Of a stretch of 27,110 nucleotides of DNA, positions 2,700 to 27,003 are shown piece after piece. The DNA lies in the IMG/VR virus record IMGVR_UViG_3300046723_000126, positions 1 to 27,110 of that record; one strand, given 5' to 3'. This DNA comes from a virus. Position numbers and translations under genes: made by a program. Position 1 is the stretch's first letter; each line of letters starts with the position of its first letter. Under the pieces are notes generated by a model. That model ran no database searches and was not told the origin of the DNA. It worked only from the letters and a program-made list of their open reading frames with translations.

Positions 2700-2966
2700 A
2701 TGCGGCGAGCGCGTAAAGTGGACGCGAATCAATCAGAGATCGTTGAGGCCCTTCGCCGCGCGGGATGCCTCGTGGAAGTGCTCAGCGATGTCGGCCGCGG
2801 TGTGCCAGACCTGCTCGTCCAACGCCGGCTCCGTCTCTACCTTGTGGAAGTGAAAGCCCCAGGAGAATCGCTGACGCCAGCGCAGCGGGACTTTCACAAT
2901 CTGTGGAACTGCCACATCGTGCATACCGTCGAGGAAGCGATCCAGTGGGCCAGGTGGGTGCGATGA
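2700..2966 (+). CDS. VRR-NUC-like nuclease
   Basis: 88 residues, the size of the stand-alone phage members of this group. The PD-(D/E)xK-type core is readable: NQSEIVEALRRAG (10-22, with Glu14), GRGVPDLLV (32-40, with Asp37), LVEVKAP (48-54, with Glu50 and Lys52), then LTPAQRDFH with Gln62. Such proteins are DNA endonucleases, sometimes described as Holliday-junction-resolvase-like. The ATG begins two bases after the upstream stop, and its own stop overlaps the NinB-like gene. The set of annealing protein, exonuclease and this nuclease fits a complete recombination module. Confidence 0.82.
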   Translation: MRRARKVDANQSEIVEALRRAGCLVEVLSDVGRGVPDLLVQRRLRLYLVEVKAPGESLTPAQRDFHNLWNCHIVHTVEEAIQWARWVR

Positions 2967-3373
2967 CGCCGATCTTCACGGCCACGGTGCGCGACGGCAA
3001 GCTCGTCCATGCGGACCTGAACGCGGTCAAGCGGCATCTGGCGACGTTGGATGGGCATGACGTGGAGTTCACCATCAAGCGCAAGCGCAGTCAACGGAGC
3101 TTGGACCAGAACGCCTACTTACATGGCTGCGTCTTCGGGCCACTGGGCGAACATCTCGGCTACACCATGTCTGAAATGAAGCTGCTGATTTGCGGCGAGT
3201 GCTGGGGCTGGAAGAATGTCGCCGGCCGCGAGTTACCCATCAAGCCCAGCACGTCGGAATTGACCGTCGAAGAGGGCAGCCATTTGATCGACTGGGTCGT
3301 GCCGTGGGCGCTCGAACAGTTCGATTTCAAGATCGCGCTCCCGAACGAGGTGGACTATGACCAGCCTCTCTAA
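2963..3373 (+). CDS. NinB-like recombination protein
   Basis: 136 residues, close to the size of lambda NinB (Orf), a recombination mediator that works with single-strand binding proteins. The readable signature is a basic patch followed by RSLDQNAYLHG (45-55) and a later PSTSELTVEEGSHLIDWVVPWALEQF segment. RSxxQN and ST-S-xL are the landmarks of this group. The start at 2963 overlaps the VRR-NUC-like stop (ATGA). The last 17 bases overlap the HNH gene. The remote relation to NinB is by eye and less certain than for ERF or the exonuclease. Confidence 0.68.
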   Translation: MTPIFTATVRDGKLVHADLNAVKRHLATLDGHDVEFTIKRKRSQRSLDQNAYLHGCVFGPLGEHLGYTMSEMKLLICGECWGWKNVAGRELPIKPSTSELTVEEGSHLIDWVVPWALEQFDFKIALPNEVDYDQPL

Positions 3374-3689
3374 ACCCATCAGCCGCGCTGAAGAACGCCA
3401 AGACCGGCTAGCGATGCGGAAACAAATCGAACGCGCGGTCTACCGCGCGGTGGACGCCCGCGACAAGTATCGCTGCCGTGCGTGCGGCGAACGCTGCAGC
3501 CCCAACGCTACGTCACTGCTGCAGAAGGCCCATCGGCATCACATCCGCTTCAGGAGTGCCGGCGGCGAGACCATCACGAACAATGTGGCGACGCTGTGTG
3601 CTCAGTGCCATGCCGACGCTCACGCCTATCGCCTGACGATTGAAGGCGATGCCAACAAGCAACTGCAGATTCGGAGGACCGAATGTTGA
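3357..3689 (+). CDS. HNH endonuclease
   Basis: 110 residues. A small HNH nuclease with paired zinc-binding cysteines (CRAC, 40-43; CAQC, 81-84) around the catalytic core. KAHRHHIRFRSAGG (57-70) supplies the first histidines, NNVATLC (75-81) the central Asn, and CHADAH (84-89) the final His. A GAGGTGG ribosome site lies 5 bases before the ATG. HNH proteins of this size often aid terminase in packaging, but here the gene sits in the recombination block and no terminase is near. A recombination or homing role is therefore equally possible. Confidence 0.85.
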   Translation: MTSLSKPISRAEERQDRLAMRKQIERAVYRAVDARDKYRCRACGERCSPNATSLLQKAHRHHIRFRSAGGETITNNVATLCAQCHADAHAYRLTIEGDANKQLQIRRTEC

Positions 3690-3967: not shown

Positions 3968-4173
3968 GCTTGCGTTGTTGGCTTCACGGCCATGAAACTT
4001 ACGTCGAGCGCAACAGTCGCGGCATCCTCGAGCTCCACTGCCACGCCTGCGGCTATGTGACCGAGGCGATCCATCGCAGCGCCAAGGAGCGGCAAGTCAT
4101 GCGGCGCAAGTTTCCGGCGAGTCGGCAGGAAGCGAGCCGGAGCAGTGCGGAACGATTGCGGAGGGTGAAGTGA
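3964..4173 (+). CDS. Small zinc-ribbon protein (DUF1660-like)
   Basis: 69 residues, starting in an ATGA overlap. The first half reads LRCWLHGHETY, then LELHCHACGYVTEA: a Cys-His pair and a CHAC knuckle about 24 residues apart, as in the small prophage zinc ribbons labelled DUF1660. The second half is strongly basic (KERQVMRRKFPASRQEASR and similar), consistent with nucleic-acid binding. Function unknown. Confidence 0.6.
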   Translation: MSLRCWLHGHETYVERNSRGILELHCHACGYVTEAIHRSAKERQVMRRKFPASRQEASRSSAERLRRVK

Positions 4174-4433
4174 GCCTGTGCGACCGACTCGCGGCTTACC
4201 TTCGCGCCCGTCCAGGCCAATGGGTAGACGGCCACGCGCTGCTCGACATTGGCGGCACGTTCGCCTTCCGCACTAGGCTGAGTGAACTGCGCCGCCCGCC
4301 GTTCAACATGACCATCGAGAACCAGACCACGCGGCACGCCTTCATGGGCCGCAAGTGGACCGAGACGAAGTATCGCTACACCGTTCAGGAGACGTCACAT
4401 GAAAACACTGCTGCTCCTACTGCTCACGTCTAG
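4170..4433 (+). CDS. Winged-helix-like DNA-binding protein
   Basis: 87 residues, GTG start in a GTGA overlap with the previous gene. The pattern RLAAYLRARPGQWVDGHALLDIGGTFAFRTRLSELRRPPFNM looks like a compact winged helix: a first helix, the WVDGHAL turn, then a recognition helix ending in RLSELR, with IENQ as the wing. This pattern is common in phage early proteins. The last 35 bases overlap the PEP-CTERM gene in another frame. It may be a local regulator, but its target is unknown. Confidence 0.65.
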   Translation: MSLCDRLAAYLRARPGQWVDGHALLDIGGTFAFRTRLSELRRPPFNMTIENQTTRHAFMGRKWTETKYRYTVQETSHENTAAPTAHV

Positions 4434-5031
4434 CGTCGTCTCGGCCAGTCCGATCTCGTTCGGAACGAGCTGGGACGGTGACCCGCCCGGCACCTTCGCG
4501 AATATCACCGGCGCCGCGGACATCAGCGCGGGTCATGCGGACTTCGCGGCCGGGACCTATCTGATCAGCGTGACCGGCGGCCACTCCGCGCTCTACAGCC
4601 AGGACACGATCGGCTTTGAGGGCGATACGGTCTGTGCCGTCAGTGCGGTCGGCTGCGTGCTGGACAAGCCCGGAGCGAACCAGCCCGCGACGGTGCTCGA
4701 AGTCTACCTCGACCGGCCGTGGCATCTCTGGGGCTGGTCGCCGGCGATTGGCAAGGTGCTGGCAACCGGGCCGCAGTTCGCCTTCACGCAGACCGGGGCG
4801 ACGACGTGGAGCTGGGGCTTCGAGGACTTGGGCGCCGGTGGCGACTACGACTACCAGGACGTGCTCGGCACGATTACGTTCCTGCACGGCATCGACCCGG
4901 ACCCGACGCCGGACCCGCATGACGTGACGCCCGTGCCGGAGCCGACGAGTTTTCTGCTGATTGGCAGCGGATTGACGTTGACTGCGCGCCGAATCAGGCG
5001 TATAAAAGCCGAAGTCCCGAGCACGCGATGA
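4399..5031 (+). CDS. Secreted PEP-CTERM protein with DUF4114-like motif
   Basis: 210 residues. It has a Sec-type signal peptide (MKTLLLLLLTSSVVSAS, cleavage likely after about residue 16) and a classic PEP-CTERM tail: VPEP at 179-182, a hydrophobic stretch FLLIGSGLTLTA, and the basic cluster RRIRR. In bacteria this tail is the sorting signal cut by exosortase EpsH/XrtA, usually in hosts that make exopolysaccharide. The body contains GFEDLGAGGDYDYQDV (140-155), like the Asp-rich core of DUF4114 domains in extracellular proteins. A GGAG ribosome site lies 7 bases before the ATG. Such a protein is unexpected among phage recombination genes. It would need the host's exosortase, and a role at the cell surface or matrix is inference. 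Confidence 0.88.
   Translation: MKTLLLLLLTSSVVSASPISFGTSWDGDPPGTFANITGAADISAGHADFAAGTYLISVTGGHSALYSQDTIGFEGDTVCAVSAVGCVLDKPGANQPATVLEVYLDRPWHLWGWSPAIGKVLATGPQFAFTQTGATTWSWGFEDLGAGGDYDYQDVLGTITFLHGIDPDPTPDPHDVTPVPEPTSFLLIGSGLTLTARRIRRIKAEVPSTR
4978..5006 (+). promoter_or_regulatory. Near-consensus sigma70-type promoter
   Basis: TTGACT (4978-4983) and TATAAA (5001-5006) are separated by exactly 17 bases, each one mismatch from the -35 and -10 consensus. The site is inside the 3' end of the PEP-CTERM gene. Transcription would begin near 5013, where a strong hairpin starts. It is the best promoter-like match I found in the window. Activity is inferred, and host sigma-factor preferences are unknown. 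Confidence 0.6.
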
Positions 5032-5045
5032 ACGTGGTCGGGACT
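5013..5045 (+). other. Strong hairpin at predicted transcript start
   Basis: AGTCCCGA (5013-5020) pairs perfectly with TCGGGACT (5038-5045). Inside, after one G-G mismatch, CACG (5022-5025) pairs with CGTG (5033-5036) around a 7-base loop. There is no T-run after it, so it is not a typical intrinsic terminator. It spans the PEP-CTERM stop codon. It could be a 5' stabilising hairpin of the downstream transcript or a 3' processing signal of the upstream one. Confidence 0.6.
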
Positions 5046-5435
5046 CAGCAAGACGCGCGGCGGCACGTCAAGATGTTTCGGCTTGGCCAGTCTAGCAAGC
5101 CGCCCTTCCTGACGCAACCTCCCACGATTCATCCACGCGAGCGGTCTGCGGGACACCGACCAGACGCGCCGATGCTCAGGCCGGAGCTCCAACGAGCGGC
5201 TGACCCTGTGGGGAACCGTCTGGCAAGCGGGCACTGTGTGCGCTCACACCCCGCGCGTAAGCGATCTGGCTCACCAGGCCAGCCCAGTCAGACGGCGCAG
5301 GCACCTAGAGGCAAGGACCGGCGGGGGCACAACGATCGACGGTCTGGCGGGGGGTGCCACTCACAGCGTGCGCCAGTCGCCTGCGCGGTAGATCGCGGGA
5401 TAGAGCGCGTTACGATCGGAAATACGAGGCGGTAG
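5013..5435 (+). ncRNA. Candidate structured noncoding RNA
   Basis: About 420 bases between the PEP-CTERM gene and the next convincing gene. The plus-strand frame opening at 5028 gives an Arg/Pro/Ser/Gln-rich product without a recognisable pattern, and the antisense frame is similar, so protein coding is doubtful. A promoter ends at 5006. Potential stems are dense: 5013-5045; CGGCTTG/CAAGCCG (5079-5085 with 5096-5102) enclosed by CGTCA/TGACG (5066-5070 with 5110-5114); GTCTG/CAGAC near 5145-5170; GCGGG/CCCGC with GTGTG/CACAC nested (5227-5254); CTGGC/GCCAG (5266-5282); and GGCACC/GGTGCC (5300-5305 with 5353-5358) enclosing GACCG/CGGTC (5316-5344). No tRNA or known family recognised. High GC makes some stems expected by chance. 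Confidence 0.4.
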
Positions 5436-5726: not shown

Positions 5727-5899
5727 GCCCGAAACTCTGCCGCACCTGCTACTTCTGGAAGCGCCGGTCTACGGCCATCGGGACGTGTTGGGAGCCGACG
5801 CAGAACCCCGGCATGAACGTCGACCCGCACGATTCCTGCGACCAGCACAGGCCGAAGGTGATCCGTGATGAATCCGTATCAGACGTTTCTCGCCAGTAA
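5723..5899 (+). CDS. Small Cys-rich protein
   Basis: 58 residues with CRTCYFWKR (7-15), a later GTC, and DPHDSCDQHRP. Four cysteines plus His/Asp fit a small metal-binding fold seen in many phage early proteins. Its 3' end overlaps the helicase start by about 32 bases in a different frame. Function unknown. Confidence 0.6.
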   Translation: MSPKLCRTCYFWKRRSTAIGTCWEPTQNPGMNVDPHDSCDQHRPKVIRDESVSDVSRQ

Positions 5900-7244
5900 G
5901 TTGCACACGGCGGAGATGTCGGGCTTCACGCCGACGCTTCCGGCGTGGCTGTTTGATTTTCAGGCGGCGCTAGTGGACTGGGCAATGCGGAAAGGCCGCT
6001 CCGCCATCTTCGCCGACTGCGGACTCGGCAAGACGCCGATGCAGCTAATCTGGGCGCAGAACGTAGTCGAGCGCACCAATCGTCCCGTGCTGGTCGTGAC
6101 GCCGCTCGCGGTCTCCTCGCAGACCTTGCGCGAGGCCGAGAAGTTCTCCATTGATGCGGTGCGCAGTCAGGATGGCAAGTTGTCCAGCCGAGCCGAGATT
6201 GTCATCACGCATTACGAGCGGCTGGAGCATTTCGACCGCAATCAGTTCGCTGGCGTAGTTTGTGACGAATCGAGCATCTTGAAGAACTTTGATGGTGTGA
6301 CTAAGGCGACCGTCACTGAGTTTGTGCGCCAGATGTCCTATCGGCTGCTCTGCACTGCGACGGCCGCGCCGAACGATTACATTGAACTCGGCACCTCGGC
6401 TGAGGCGTTGGGCGAGATGGGTTACATGGACATGCTAACGCGGTTCTTTAAGAACGACGGCAATACGATCGCCGGATGGGGCCATCAGACGAAGTGGCGA
6501 TTCAAGCCACACGCCGAGCGGCCATTCTGGCAATGGCTCTGCTCGTGGTCTCGCGCATTGCGCAAGCCGAGCGACCTCGGATTCTCCGATGCAGCCTTCG
6601 CGCTGCCGCCACTGGTGGAGCGGGTCGATATCGTCCAATGCTCCCGCCCGACCGATGGGAAGCTGTTTGTCATGCCCGCGAAAGACTTGCGGGAGCAGCG
6701 ATGGGAACGTCGCGCGACGTTAACAGAACGCTGCGAACATGCGGCGGCTATCCATGCTAGCCACGCGCGGCCCTACGTGGCGTGGTGTCACCTGAACGAC
6801 GAAGGCGACCTGCTCGAGAAGCTCCTGCCGGATGCGGTCCAAGTCAGTGGGAATGATGCGGATGAGGCCAAGGTCGAGAAGTTTGACGCCTTTGCCAAGG
6901 GCCAGGTGCGCGGGCTGATTACGAAGCCGAAGATCGGCGGATTTGGCCTCAATTGGCAGCATTGCGCCGATGTGACGATGTTCCCGTCGCACTCCTACGA
7001 GCAGTATTACCAGGCTGTCCGACGGTGCTGGCGCTACGGGCAGACTCGGCCGGTGACGGTCACGCTCATCTCGACCGAGGGCGAGGCTGACGTGATGAGC
7101 AATTTGCAGCGCAAGACTGTTGCCGCTGACCGCATGTTCACAGAGATGGTCGCGGCGATGGCTGACGCGACGACAATTCGCACCGCGCCGATGCAGTCTG
7201 CATCTGCGCCGATACCTGACTGGATGGGAGTGCTTGCGCGATGA
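5868..7244 (+). CDS. SNF2/DEAD-like helicase (ATPase)
   Basis: 458 residues from ATG 5868; a GTG at 5865 is equally in frame, and AAGGTG (5855-5860) suits either. Superfamily-2 motifs in order: Gln-type FDFQAALVDWA near 29-39; Walker A ADCGLGKT (49-56); motif Ia VVTPLAV; Walker B CDESSILKN (132-140); motif III LLCTATAAPN (160-169); then a C-terminal RecA half with GLITKPKIGGFGLNWQ and the arginine-finger motif QAVRRCWRYGQ (near 390). This is the SNF2-like architecture of phage helicases, without a fused nuclease. It overlaps a DNA methyltransferase by 4 bases. Likely roles are replication/recombination remodelling or translocation coupled to the methylase. Confidence 0.9.
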   Translation: MNPYQTFLASKLHTAEMSGFTPTLPAWLFDFQAALVDWAMRKGRSAIFADCGLGKTPMQLIWAQNVVERTNRPVLVVTPLAVSSQTLREAEKFSIDAVRSQDGKLSSRAEIVITHYERLEHFDRNQFAGVVCDESSILKNFDGVTKATVTEFVRQMSYRLLCTATAAPNDYIELGTSAEALGEMGYMDMLTRFFKNDGNTIAGWGHQTKWRFKPHAERPFWQWLCSWSRALRKPSDLGFSDAAFALPPLVERVDIVQCSRPTDGKLFVMPAKDLREQRWERRATLTERCEHAAAIHASHARPYVAWCHLNDEGDLLEKLLPDAVQVSGNDADEAKVEKFDAFAKGQVRGLITKPKIGGFGLNWQHCADVTMFPSHSYEQYYQAVRRCWRYGQTRPVTVTLISTEGEADVMSNLQRKTVAADRMFTEMVAAMADATTIRTAPMQSASAPIPDWMGVLAR

Positions 7245-8209
7245 CCAATGAGATCACCGACCAATACGCGATTTATTTGGGCGACTGCATCGATGTGCTC
7301 GACGGCCTACCGTCAGAGTCTGTGCATCTCTCCGTCTACAGCCCTCCATTCTGTGGCCTCTACAACTACTCCTCAAGCGAGCGCGACCTGAGCAACTGTC
7401 GGAGCCGCGAGGAGTTTTTCGAGCATTACGCCTTTGTTGTGGCTGAGCTCGCTCGCGTGACGCTGCCTGGGCGCATCACGGCAGTGCATTGCATGGACAT
7501 TCCGAACGGCAACGGCACGCTCTATGATTTCCCGGCGGCGATTGTGGCGCTTCACGGGTCGCACGGATTCAAGTTCATTGCCCGGCATGCGGTCTGGAAG
7601 GAGCCATTCGGCGTCAGGATGCGGACAATGGCTAAAGGCTTGGCGCACAAGCAAGTCGTCGAGGATGCGTCGCTCTGCGATGTCGCGTCCGCCGATTACC
7701 TGCTGTTGTTCCGCAAGGCCGGGACCAATCCGATTCCGATTGAGCATCCCTCCGGCTTGTTGCACTATGCGGGCGAGCGTCAGATGCCGACCGAACTGCT
7801 GCAGTATCGAGGCTGGACAGGCAAACAGACCGAGAATCGCTACTCGCATTGGATTTGGCGGCAATATGCGTCAGCCTTCTGGGATGACGTGCGAATCGAC
7901 CGCGTGCTGCCGTTCCATGATGCGCGCGAAGAAGATGACGAGAAGCATGTGCATCCCTTGCAGCTCGACGTGATCGAGCGCATCGTCACGCTTCGCTCGA
8001 ATCCTGGCGAGACGGTGCTCACGCCGTTTATGGGCGTCGGCTCAGAAGTCTACGGCGCGGTGCTGAACAATCGGCGCGGGGTTGGTATTGAGCTCAAGGC
8101 GAGTTATTACAAGCAAGCGGTAAAGAATGTCCGCGCGGCGGTTGGCGAACGAGACCGCGAACAAGTGCCGCTATTTGCCGACATCGCCGATACTGCGAGG
8201 TCACTGTGA
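7241..8209 (+). CDS. DNA methyltransferase (N4-C/N6-A type)
   Basis: 322 residues, ATGA overlap with the helicase. The catalytic motif IV SPPF is at 34-37 and the SAM-binding motif I TPFMGVGSEVYGA is near 260-272, followed by RRGVGIELKASYYKQA. The order catalytic motif, target-recognition region, SAM site is the permuted beta-class layout. An SPP(Y/F) motif is most often seen in N4-cytosine enzymes, while DPPY is typical of N6-adenine, so the target base is uncertain. No restriction endonuclease is adjacent, so it is probably an orphan methylase that protects phage DNA or marks it for the partner helicase. Confidence 0.92.
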   Translation: MTNEITDQYAIYLGDCIDVLDGLPSESVHLSVYSPPFCGLYNYSSSERDLSNCRSREEFFEHYAFVVAELARVTLPGRITAVHCMDIPNGNGTLYDFPAAIVALHGSHGFKFIARHAVWKEPFGVRMRTMAKGLAHKQVVEDASLCDVASADYLLLFRKAGTNPIPIEHPSGLLHYAGERQMPTELLQYRGWTGKQTENRYSHWIWRQYASAFWDDVRIDRVLPFHDAREEDDEKHVHPLQLDVIERIVTLRSNPGETVLTPFMGVGSEVYGAVLNNRRGVGIELKASYYKQAVKNVRAAVGERDREQVPLFADIADTARSL

Positions 8210-24100: not shown

Positions 24101-26311
24101 CTAGGATACCCTGCGCGTCAATCGTCCCCAGCCGGCCAGACTGAGAAGATAAATCAGCCCCATTGAGCCGATCGTCTCCGATGGCACTGGCGCGGGCATC
24201 GAGGTCGCCACTGAAAAGACATGGATGATCGGCGCGCGACTAAACGGACCAATCGTGGTGTCATCCACGAAAGGCGCGGCGACATAGAGTTTGTTCGTGG
24301 CCGAATCAAAGTAGACGCCACTAATGTAGTCTGGGAAGGTTGAGCTATTTTCCGGGGCAAAGGCCATCGTCGCGTCGATGTTGTGAAGATAAATGAGGTT
24401 GTCCGGGTCGAGGGAATATTCTGGATTCCCGCTGGTCGGCGCGGCAAGCACGTCGGCTGTCGAATACATCGCTAACGCGGGTTCACGATGATTCGTGACG
24501 GGTCCAGTGTTCCCCACGCCGGAATCGACGTTGTGAAGCGTGCAAAATTGCGGCCCGTGACAAGGGGTCATGATCCCTGACGCAATAGTGGCCCCTTCGT
24601 CGCTCGTGCCGGGAACCTTGGCGTCAGTAATCGTATCGACCGTGGCCAACCCTGTTCCTGGCACGGTCATACTGACGAGCGAGTTGGCCGTGCTATTCCC
24701 GCTAATGCCCGTGACCACATCATTCGCCGTCGTCGTGACGACGCTGGAACCGTTGGTCGCCAAATGCACCGTAATAATGTTCCCGGATGTCGTCACGCTA
24801 AAACCCGCGCTCGACGTGCCTGGATTCAAGAACTTCACTCCCACCGCATTCGCCACAACGTTCGTATAAAAGGCGGGTTTCACGCAGAACGCGATCTCGG
24901 AGTCGATATTTCCGGTATTGGTCTGCGCGCAAGATTCTAGCGCATTGCGCTGGAAGATCAGCGTCGGGCCGGTGCCCTTCTCTTGATAGGTGAATCCCGC
25001 ATTCGTCTTATACCAGGTATGACCCACCGAGAGCGTCATCGCCACGATGACGGCGGACTTCGGCGAGGTATTCACCCACGCCGTCCCGTTGTCTTTATCG
25101 AGGGAACTCCATCCCCCTACGCCTCCATACAAGTCAGGATCGGGGGCATCAGTGCCGCCGACATCCTCATATAAATAATTGCCCTGTGTCGCGTCGGTGG
25201 TCCGTCGAAAGGTGATATTCGGTCCGCTGATGATGGCTCCCGCATCGGTGAGATTCCCGTCGAGATGGTAGAACGCGAGGGCTTCTGTGGGAGACTGCAG
25301 GTCTGTCGTGCGATAGGGCGCCGTCCCGCGTGTTGAGCCATAGCCCTGGGGCGTGGATGCGGTCGGCCAGGTGAGTCCCGAAAAGAAGCTTGGGCCTTTA
25401 TTGAAGGTGTTTTGCTGCCACGCCGCATTGGCTCCGCCGATGCCCATGCTGCCATCTGGCTGGTCCCACAGGTCCATCCCGCGCATGCCGCCGCAGGTCT
25501 GACCTCCTGTTCCCCCGACGCCGTAGGTGCCAGCACAGGTCCGCCAATGGTAGGCCGTGGTGCTGCCAGTGCCGACAAGGTCGGCCATCGCGAGATTCGT
25601 GTCGGGTGAGTAGTTGGTGTAGCCCTGTCCGTAGGTCGCAAACAGGCAGCAATGGCCCGAACCATCATCGTGCCAATAAGCGCCGACGACAATATAATTG
25701 CTGCCCCCGCCTAAATCGCCAATGGCAATGTTTGTCGCGCCGAGTGTGCAGGGTGGGGTGCCTCCAGGCTGGTTCCCCCACGGCGTCGTACTCAGACAGG
25801 TCGTCGTGCCGAGTTGCCCATGCCACATGTCGTAGGAGTTGCCGCCGCCATCCAGTCCCCAATTCTTGATGAATGTCCCATGCGGGGCGCTCGGCCACGA
25901 TTTGTTGTAGCCGCTGCCAGGATCAGCATATTCGTAGACCGCGCCAGGGCCTGGATCAGTTGGCCCGAAATTACCGTGTTCATAGGCTTGTATGAGCATC
26001 ACATGCACCACGCCGCTGACTTTACGGAAGGCGACGGGCTGCGTATCCGTCCCAATGTTGGGTGCCGTGCCGGTATTCGGCACGAGGAAATCGCCGAGCC
26101 ATGTCAGGTCGGACTGCGTGAACGTCGCGCCGCCCCCACCGCCTCCCGTAGGCCGAAGACTGATCGACATCCGCACTTGCGGCACGTTCGCCTCGCGTGG
26201 TGACGCGATGAGTGGCTGAGGCGCATGCGCCAAGCCAGGGACAGAGGCGACGGAGGCACACAGATTCACGCCCAGAAGCAGCGCCAGCGCGATCAAGGCG
26301 ACGCGTGTCAT
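24101..26311 (-). CDS. Large exported protein with sorting-like C-terminus
   Basis: 736 residues from ATG 26311, which overlaps the preceding stop (ATGA). The first 30 residues (MTRVALIALALLLGVNLCAS and on to GLAHA) form a Sec signal peptide. The body is Gly/Thr/Asn-rich and beta-like, with a poly-Gly linker (PTGGGGGGATF) and segments such as SGVYFDSATNKLYVAAPF. The last 32 residues read PAPVPSETIGSMG, a hydrophobic stretch and LTRR: proline motif, membrane helix and basic tail, resembling PEP-CTERM or IPTL-CTERM sorting signals without the exact motif. No enzyme family recognised. Surface exposure of the infected host or decoration of the virion are both possible. Confidence 0.72.
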   Translation of the reverse strand: MTRVALIALALLLGVNLCASVASVPGLAHAPQPLIASPREANVPQVRMSISLRPTGGGGGGATFTQSDLTWLGDFLVPNTGTAPNIGTDTQPVAFRKVSGVVHVMLIQAYEHGNFGPTDPGPGAVYEYADPGSGYNKSWPSAPHGTFIKNWGLDGGGNSYDMWHGQLGTTTCLSTTPWGNQPGGTPPCTLGATNIAIGDLGGGSNYIVVGAYWHDDGSGHCCLFATYGQGYTNYSPDTNLAMADLVGTGSTTAYHWRTCAGTYGVGGTGGQTCGGMRGMDLWDQPDGSMGIGGANAAWQQNTFNKGPSFFSGLTWPTASTPQGYGSTRGTAPYRTTDLQSPTEALAFYHLDGNLTDAGAIISGPNITFRRTTDATQGNYLYEDVGGTDAPDPDLYGGVGGWSSLDKDNGTAWVNTSPKSAVIVAMTLSVGHTWYKTNAGFTYQEKGTGPTLIFQRNALESCAQTNTGNIDSEIAFCVKPAFYTNVVANAVGVKFLNPGTSSAGFSVTTSGNIITVHLATNGSSVVTTTANDVVTGISGNSTANSLVSMTVPGTGLATVDTITDAKVPGTSDEGATIASGIMTPCHGPQFCTLHNVDSGVGNTGPVTNHREPALAMYSTADVLAAPTSGNPEYSLDPDNLIYLHNIDATMAFAPENSSTFPDYISGVYFDSATNKLYVAAPFVDDTTIGPFSRAPIIHVFSVATSMPAPVPSETIGSMGLIYLLSLAGWGRLTRRVS

Positions 26312-27003
26312 TGAGGCGACCGGCAGCAGCGAATCGGCGCATTGATGATGGCCGCAGGAAAAGTCGTCCCAGCACTCAGATCGCCGCCGCTCCACGTATT
26401 CAGGCCGAGAGCATCCCCGCTGCCGTTACTGTAGACGTTGATGCCGGGTTGCCCGGACGAATACGTGCTGTCGCTATGTGTCGCGAGCGTGGAGCCGTTG
26501 ATCTTGAACGTCAAGACACCCGCGTTGTCTTCCAAATACAGCACGTCGCCATCAGCCGCCGTGTGCGATCCGCTGGCAAGCGAGTTATACGAGATGCCCG
26601 TATCTTGCCGATAGAGCGCCCACGTGCTGCCCACCGAATCAACAAAGACCACATACCCCGTGAAGAGCGCGAGGGAGGCCCCGCTCATCTCGACGCCGAC
26701 GCCGCACTGCTGGCTGCCATAGGGCGGCGTGCCGCCGACGGTGTTACACGTCACTTGACTGAACTGATTCGCGCTAAAGGTGTTGGTGGACGGATTCCAC
26801 CATGCCACAGCCTGCGGGTTGATGCTGGCGTTTTTCTGCGTGGCGGAGTTGCTCTTAATGCCGAACTCCGTCTCGGGATCGATCCAGTTCGTGCCGAGCG
26901 TCGTGTTATCGGCGCGCGTGAAGTTATCCGAGGCCGTCGTGAACATCGGCGGGGCCGGCAATAGCCCAATCGCGAGCAGACCCGCCGCGAGAAGTTGACG
27001 CAT
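26308..27003 (-). CDS. Exported LamG/concanavalin-like protein
   Basis: 231 residues with a signal peptide (MRQLLAAGLLAIGLLPAPP). The mature part begins SDNFTRADNTTLGTNW, the typical entry strand of concanavalin-A-like (LamG) sandwich domains. It continues with alternating strands (YVVFVDSVGSTWALYRQD, DVLYLEDNAGVLTFKINGSTLA, PGINVYSNGSGDALGLNTWSGGD). A carbohydrate-binding role is suggested by the fold but not proven. Two cysteine pairs would suit the periplasm. It is TAATG-coupled to the partial gene upstream and ATGA-coupled to the large exported protein. Confidence 0.72.
   Translation of the reverse strand: MRQLLAAGLLAIGLLPAPPMFTTASDNFTRADNTTLGTNWIDPETEFGIKSNSATQKNASINPQAVAWWNPSTNTFSANQFSQVTCNTVGGTPPYGSQQCGVGVEMSGASLALFTGYVVFVDSVGSTWALYRQDTGISYNSLASGSHTAADGDVLYLEDNAGVLTFKINGSTLATHSDSTYSSGQPGINVYSNGSGDALGLNTWSGGDLSAGTTFPAAIINAPIRCCRSPQ

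Follow-up and report, generated by a model that had tools for sequence, protein, structure and literature searches.

A predicted PEP-CTERM protein in a phage recombination block and its clearer counterparts in other phages

Exosortase sorting is a bacterial system for proteins of the envelope and matrix, and is needed, for example, in floc formation. The known substrates of exosortase (EpsH), described by Haft et al. in 2006 (PMC1569441), carry a signal-like N-terminus and a C-terminal PEP-CTERM domain, in which a near-invariant Pro-Glu-Pro motif is combined with a strongly hydrophobic stretch of ~14 residues and a basic cluster near the C-terminus; they typically show no homology outside this domain, and most of their genes form operons of their own, preceded by long upstream regions (PMC1569441). 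On the viral side, a putative exosortase interaction domain has been noted on TIGR03118 proteins among the genes counted as horizontally transferred by viruses, a passing mention (PMC11003980). Beyond this mention, no paper describing phage-encoded PEP-CTERM substrates was found in the open-access literature searched, in line with the statement in a preliminary description of the present locus that such substrates are rarely described.

The window, as the DNA analysed here is called, comprises 27,110 bases of an IMG/VR virus record. The gene of interest and its surroundings are as follows.

653-1294, + strand: Erf single-stranded-DNA-annealing protein (PF04404, 7.9e-27; phrog_2324, 2.5e-41)
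1788-2438, + strand: YqaJ-type exonuclease (PF09588, 5.1e-25; phrog_149)
2963-3373, + strand: NinB/Orf recombination mediator (phrog_72, 1.1e-13)
3357-3689, + strand: HNH endonuclease (PF01844, 3.7e-8)
4173-4433, + strand: small open reading frame with its 3' end overlapping the start of the PEP-CTERM gene (operon-like)
4386-4391 (approximate coordinates), + strand: AGGAG-type ribosome binding site (sequence reading)
4399-5031, + strand: predicted PEP-CTERM (exosortase-sorted) protein of 210 aa (open reading frame, PF07589, TIGR02595, codon scoring)
4399-4449, + strand: signal-peptide-like N-terminus MKTLLLLLLTSSVVSAS (inspection; most hydrophobic windows of the protein)
4930-5001, + strand: PEP-CTERM domain with VPEP, hydrophobic stretch and RRIRR (PF07589; TIGR02595 at the cut-off)
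5868-7244, + strand: SNF2-type phage helicase (phrog_62, 4e-58)
7241-8209, + strand: N6/N4 DNA methylase (PF01555, 2.4e-15; phrog_67, 6.1e-34)

With Erf, YqaJ, NinB and HNH genes upstream, the SNF2 helicase and N6/N4 methylase genes downstream, and genes for a head-closure protein and an endolysin farther downstream, the PEP-CTERM gene sits in a phage early operon, a recombination/replication block as had been described. A codon score built from the remaining genes of the window favoured its reading frame (+0.245 per codon, against -0.16 to -0.71 for the five other frames), and its GC3 of 0.84 is the same as that of the other genes of the phage. Together with the AGGAG motif, located 7 nt before the ATG, and the overlap with the upstream frame, these values indicate that the gene is real and the phage's own. 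No promoter or terminator of its own was seen by a consensus scan. The gene is operonic and lies among phage recombination genes, unlike the PEP-CTERM genes of exopolysaccharide (EPS) bacteria, which mostly form single-gene operons (PMC1569441). Directly behind it, positions 5031-5435 represent ~400 bases without coding signal in an otherwise tightly packed operon. The open reading frame at 5028-5435 looks non-coding by codon scoring, and the region was also rejected as an RNA gene or regulator, with no Rfam match, no tRNA and a fold no better than that of shuffled sequences; no promoter or terminator match was found in it.

The 210-aa protein resembles the known substrates in layout, including a signal-like N-terminus, called by eye and hydropathy only. 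VPEP at residues 179-182 provides the Pro-Glu-Pro motif; the segment that follows, TSFLLIGSGLTLTA, is only moderately hydrophobic (mean hydropathy of 1.02 over 15 residues); and the basic cluster, RRIRR, occupies residues 197-201, near the C-terminus rather than at its very end, because nine more residues (IKAEVPSTR) come after it. In a six-frame search of the window, PF07589 gave this region as its sole match (24.7 bits, E 1.2e-6; cut-off 20.7), whereas on the whole protein the score of 20.6 fell 0.1 bit short of the cut-off; TIGR02595 scored 16.0, exactly on its cut-off of 16. Such threshold-level scores set the protein apart from the known substrates. Among 50 related phage records, gathered via the helicase and the head-closure protein, no PEP-CTERM match was obtained at E 0.1, and for this reason we regard the match as above chance, yet marginal. 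Judged by its sequence, the protein is an above-chance but marginal-scoring PEP-CTERM member. The profile searches therefore bear out the PEP-CTERM call of the preliminary description over the window, leave it on the edge for the whole protein, and do not extend to the DUF4114-like motif that the same description had proposed: PF13448 scored 18.2 bits where its cut-off is 27 and covered 24 of its 85 positions, and the domain is not supported. A search of solved structures yielded no relatives of the protein, and an AlphaFold model from the single sequence was useless (mean pLDDT of 31).

As is typical of PEP-CTERM proteins, the body of the protein is without homologues: none were found in IMG/VR, phage records or GTDB contigs, and a plasmid search with the 210-aa protein returned two insignificant matches only. 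Consequently, selection on its tail is not measurable. Viral homologues in the same gene neighbourhood, the search for which had been suggested, are likewise absent from IMG/VR and phage records. In the related phages, the position before the helicase is taken by other genes, with no secreted or PEP-CTERM protein among them, and given also the lack of a PEP-CTERM match in all 50 records, we conclude that the gene is a lineage-specific insertion into the operon.

Two further genes of the window, both on the - strand, deserve mention. The product of the gene at 24104-26311 (736 aa) has a signal-like N-terminus, and its C-terminal end, PVPSETIGSMGLIYLLSLAGWGRLTRRVS, is arranged like a PEP-CTERM domain but lacks the PEP. 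Its tail is similar by eye and was recognised by no model, and we do not claim it as an exosortase substrate; residues 488-607 show weak similarity to phage tail sheath proteins. The product of the adjoining gene, 26311-27003 (231 aa), has a signal-like N-terminus too and is weakly related to L063 and to a family of virion structural proteins.

No exosortase is encoded in the window, and a host enzyme would therefore be needed; nor was one found in 31 other PEP-CTERM phage records, many of which are fragments. Matches to the tail were detected in ~20 of 396 Acidobacteriota genomes, with the closest tails, including those of L177, L176 and L172, reaching up to 68% over 25 residues. These acidobacterial PEP-CTERM proteins have unrelated bodies and, unlike the phage gene, are encoded on chromosomes of exosortase-carrying genomes. 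In contrast, 398 Pseudomonadota genomes contained no match to the tail, and the two matches obtained there fall elsewhere in the protein; the difference between the two phyla is only a hint. Exosortase (PF09721) was present in all 11 tail-matching genomes tested (E 1e-61 to 1e-79) and in one of nine other genomes, with a weak match; the single genome matched outside the tail was without it. By sequence likeness, the tail looks like that of an acidobacterial-type exosortase substrate, which does not in itself identify the host. The three bacterial genomes nearest by the head-closure protein carry no exosortase, but this kinship is weak (34-40%), and host assignment via the head-closure protein was abandoned, with distant matches only.

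To assess how far such genes occur in other phages, IMG/VR was scanned at the DNA level with a pattern comprising VPEP, an arginine cluster and a stop, which samples GC-rich cases only. The scan returned 96 stretches, and full PEP-CTERM tails were found in 11 of the 80 loci read. In seven of the 11, clear phage genes lie beside the PEP-CTERM gene.

L116: terminase and portal beside the PEP-CTERM gene
L088, 6871-8238, + strand: 455-aa PEP-CTERM protein downstream of terminase and portal
L081: virion protein and DNA polymerase beside the PEP-CTERM gene
L110: helicase/primase beside the PEP-CTERM gene
L134: tail fibre beside the PEP-CTERM gene
L086: baseplate beside the PEP-CTERM gene
L104: ParB-like gene beside the PEP-CTERM gene

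Two other loci, L122 and L127, were left out of this count, their neighbours being less phage-like by eye. The tails of these phage proteins score over the TIGR02595 cut-off, and the phage-borne PEP-CTERM protein of the window is thus not unique: other IMG/VR phages encode clear ones. Three loci have two adjacent PEP-CTERM genes each, namely L081 (11733-13108, - strand), L110 (600-1907, - strand) and L212 (4079-5600, + strand).

Four of the proteins (from L116, L118, L134 and L104) belong to one family, and their alignment, used as query, retrieved 27 loci, including four from contigs 40-42 kb long. This 'TIITFGQ' family, comprising the above four, L153 and L189-L213 (L191 and L203 included), has seemingly not been described. 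VPEP and the hydrophobic stretch are present in all family sequences with a complete C-terminus and in two more that are cut inside the tail; one record ends before the tail. V-P-E-P does not vary among the 21 distinct sequences, and conservation is higher in the tail columns (80%) than in the body (64%). In pairwise comparisons by a simple counting method, with few tail sites and saturation in some pairs, dN/dS of the tail was 0.03-0.17 in most pairs (0.46 in one), compared with 0.12-0.57 for the body, and in most pairs the tail had the lower value. Several of the genes are placed immediately ahead of terminase or in the interval separating it from portal; those of L211 and L199 are found near Sak4 or exonuclease genes and, like the window gene, within a few kb of recombination genes. 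The window protein resembles the family in being phage-encoded, in size (~210-220 aa), in its signal-like N-terminus and PEP-CTERM tail, and in the lack of an exosortase in the phage record. The bodies, however, are not homologous and the tails alone align; moreover, the family is common to many phages, whereas the window gene is so far a singleton. The TIGR03118 proteins likewise have exosortase-type C-termini on virus-contig genes, but belong to another protein family, mentioned only in the gene count of that study and given no analysis there (PMC11003980). The invariant VPEP, the low dN/dS of the tails and the absence of exosortase from the phage records provide good evidence that phages retain these tails because they are used, with the enzyme supplied by the host. 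The occurrence of the same tail, under selection, on proteins of unrelated viruses suggests that some phages place proteins on the host surface via exosortase.

For the gene at 4399-5031, we favour, with a probability of roughly 60%, the reading of a cargo ('moron') gene of the phage, with a secreted product that relies on the host exosortase. The PEP-CTERM proteins of other phages serve as independent precedent. Speaking against this reading are the scores at the model cut-offs, the body without homologues, the lack of a PEP-CTERM gene in related phages, the exosortase-free genomes nearest by the head-closure protein, the setting in a multi-gene operon and the nine residues behind the basic cluster. 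Following transcription of the early operon, the 210-aa protein would be exported by Sec via its signal peptide and would be held in the inner membrane by the hydrophobic C-terminal stretch and RRIRR; a host exosortase of the EpsH/XrtA type would then recognise VPEP, remove the tail and deliver the protein to the outer surface or the matrix. Direct observation covers the gene and its frame, the tail motif, the phage setting, the lack of an exosortase in the window and its presence in bacteria with similar tails; export, cleavage and surface location are inferred. What the protein might do at the surface is the weakest step, a guess modelled on the roles of other phage cargo proteins: most likely it would alter the encounters of the infected cell with other phages or with neighbours, by masking or altering receptors or matrix, and receptor masking or superinfection exclusion specifically appears somewhat doubtful. 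Of the earlier interpretation, in which the phage places its own protein on the surface of an exosortase-carrying host, the PEP-CTERM protein in a phage block, the window devoid of exosortase and the likeness of the tail to substrates of exosortase carriers have held up; the DUF4114 component has not.

An unlikely alternative is that a recently captured host gene is carried as a passenger, its product being a true substrate of the former host with no function in the phage. Such an origin would agree with the absence of the gene from all related phages and with the acidobacterial character of the tail, but the phage-like codon usage, the tight operon overlap, the lack of a close host homologue and the purifying selection on such tails in other phages argue against it. 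The odds are smaller that the resemblance arose by chance, the protein being a membrane-anchored or secreted phage protein with a tail that serves only as an anchor and is never seen by exosortase. Although the threshold-level scores, the weakly hydrophobic core and the residues after the basic cluster speak for this possibility, the E-value of 1.2e-6 over the window, the right order and spacing of the elements at the C-terminus of a frame with a signal-like N-terminus, and the lack of any such match in the 50 related phage records all weigh in the opposite direction.

We consider it very improbable that the protein is a decoy that occupies or saturates the host exosortase, whereby host matrix proteins would be mis-sorted and the matrix around the infected cell loosened. 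The combination of a host-sorted tail with a body of no other relation, and the variety of bodies between phages, would suit this role; in the 27-locus family, however, the body is conserved too (dN/dS 0.12-0.57), which implies that the body matters there. An assembly chimera, with a piece of host DNA joined into the phage contig, had been named as a finding that would overturn the claim. In its favour, no further contig sharing these junctions turned up, but the in-frame operon overlap of the gene start with the upstream open reading frame, the phage genes on both sides and the phage-like codons give no sign of a chimera, and we regard a chimera as extremely improbable.

The cargo-gene reading concerns a marginal-scoring singleton, and the wider phage pattern is stronger than this single case. 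Tentatively, we propose that surface proteins sorted by the host exosortase have arisen repeatedly, by evolution or capture and independently of one another, in phages whose hosts carry exosortase, as a general route to remodelling of the envelope or matrix, of which the window would be one instance with a body of its own. If phages do feed their own proteins into exosortase sorting, this would represent a new phage-host interface. It would also hint at which hosts uncultured phages infect, since these hosts should carry exosortase, and would supply compact natural substrates, with tails conserved across many phages, for probing what exosortases need and how they act.
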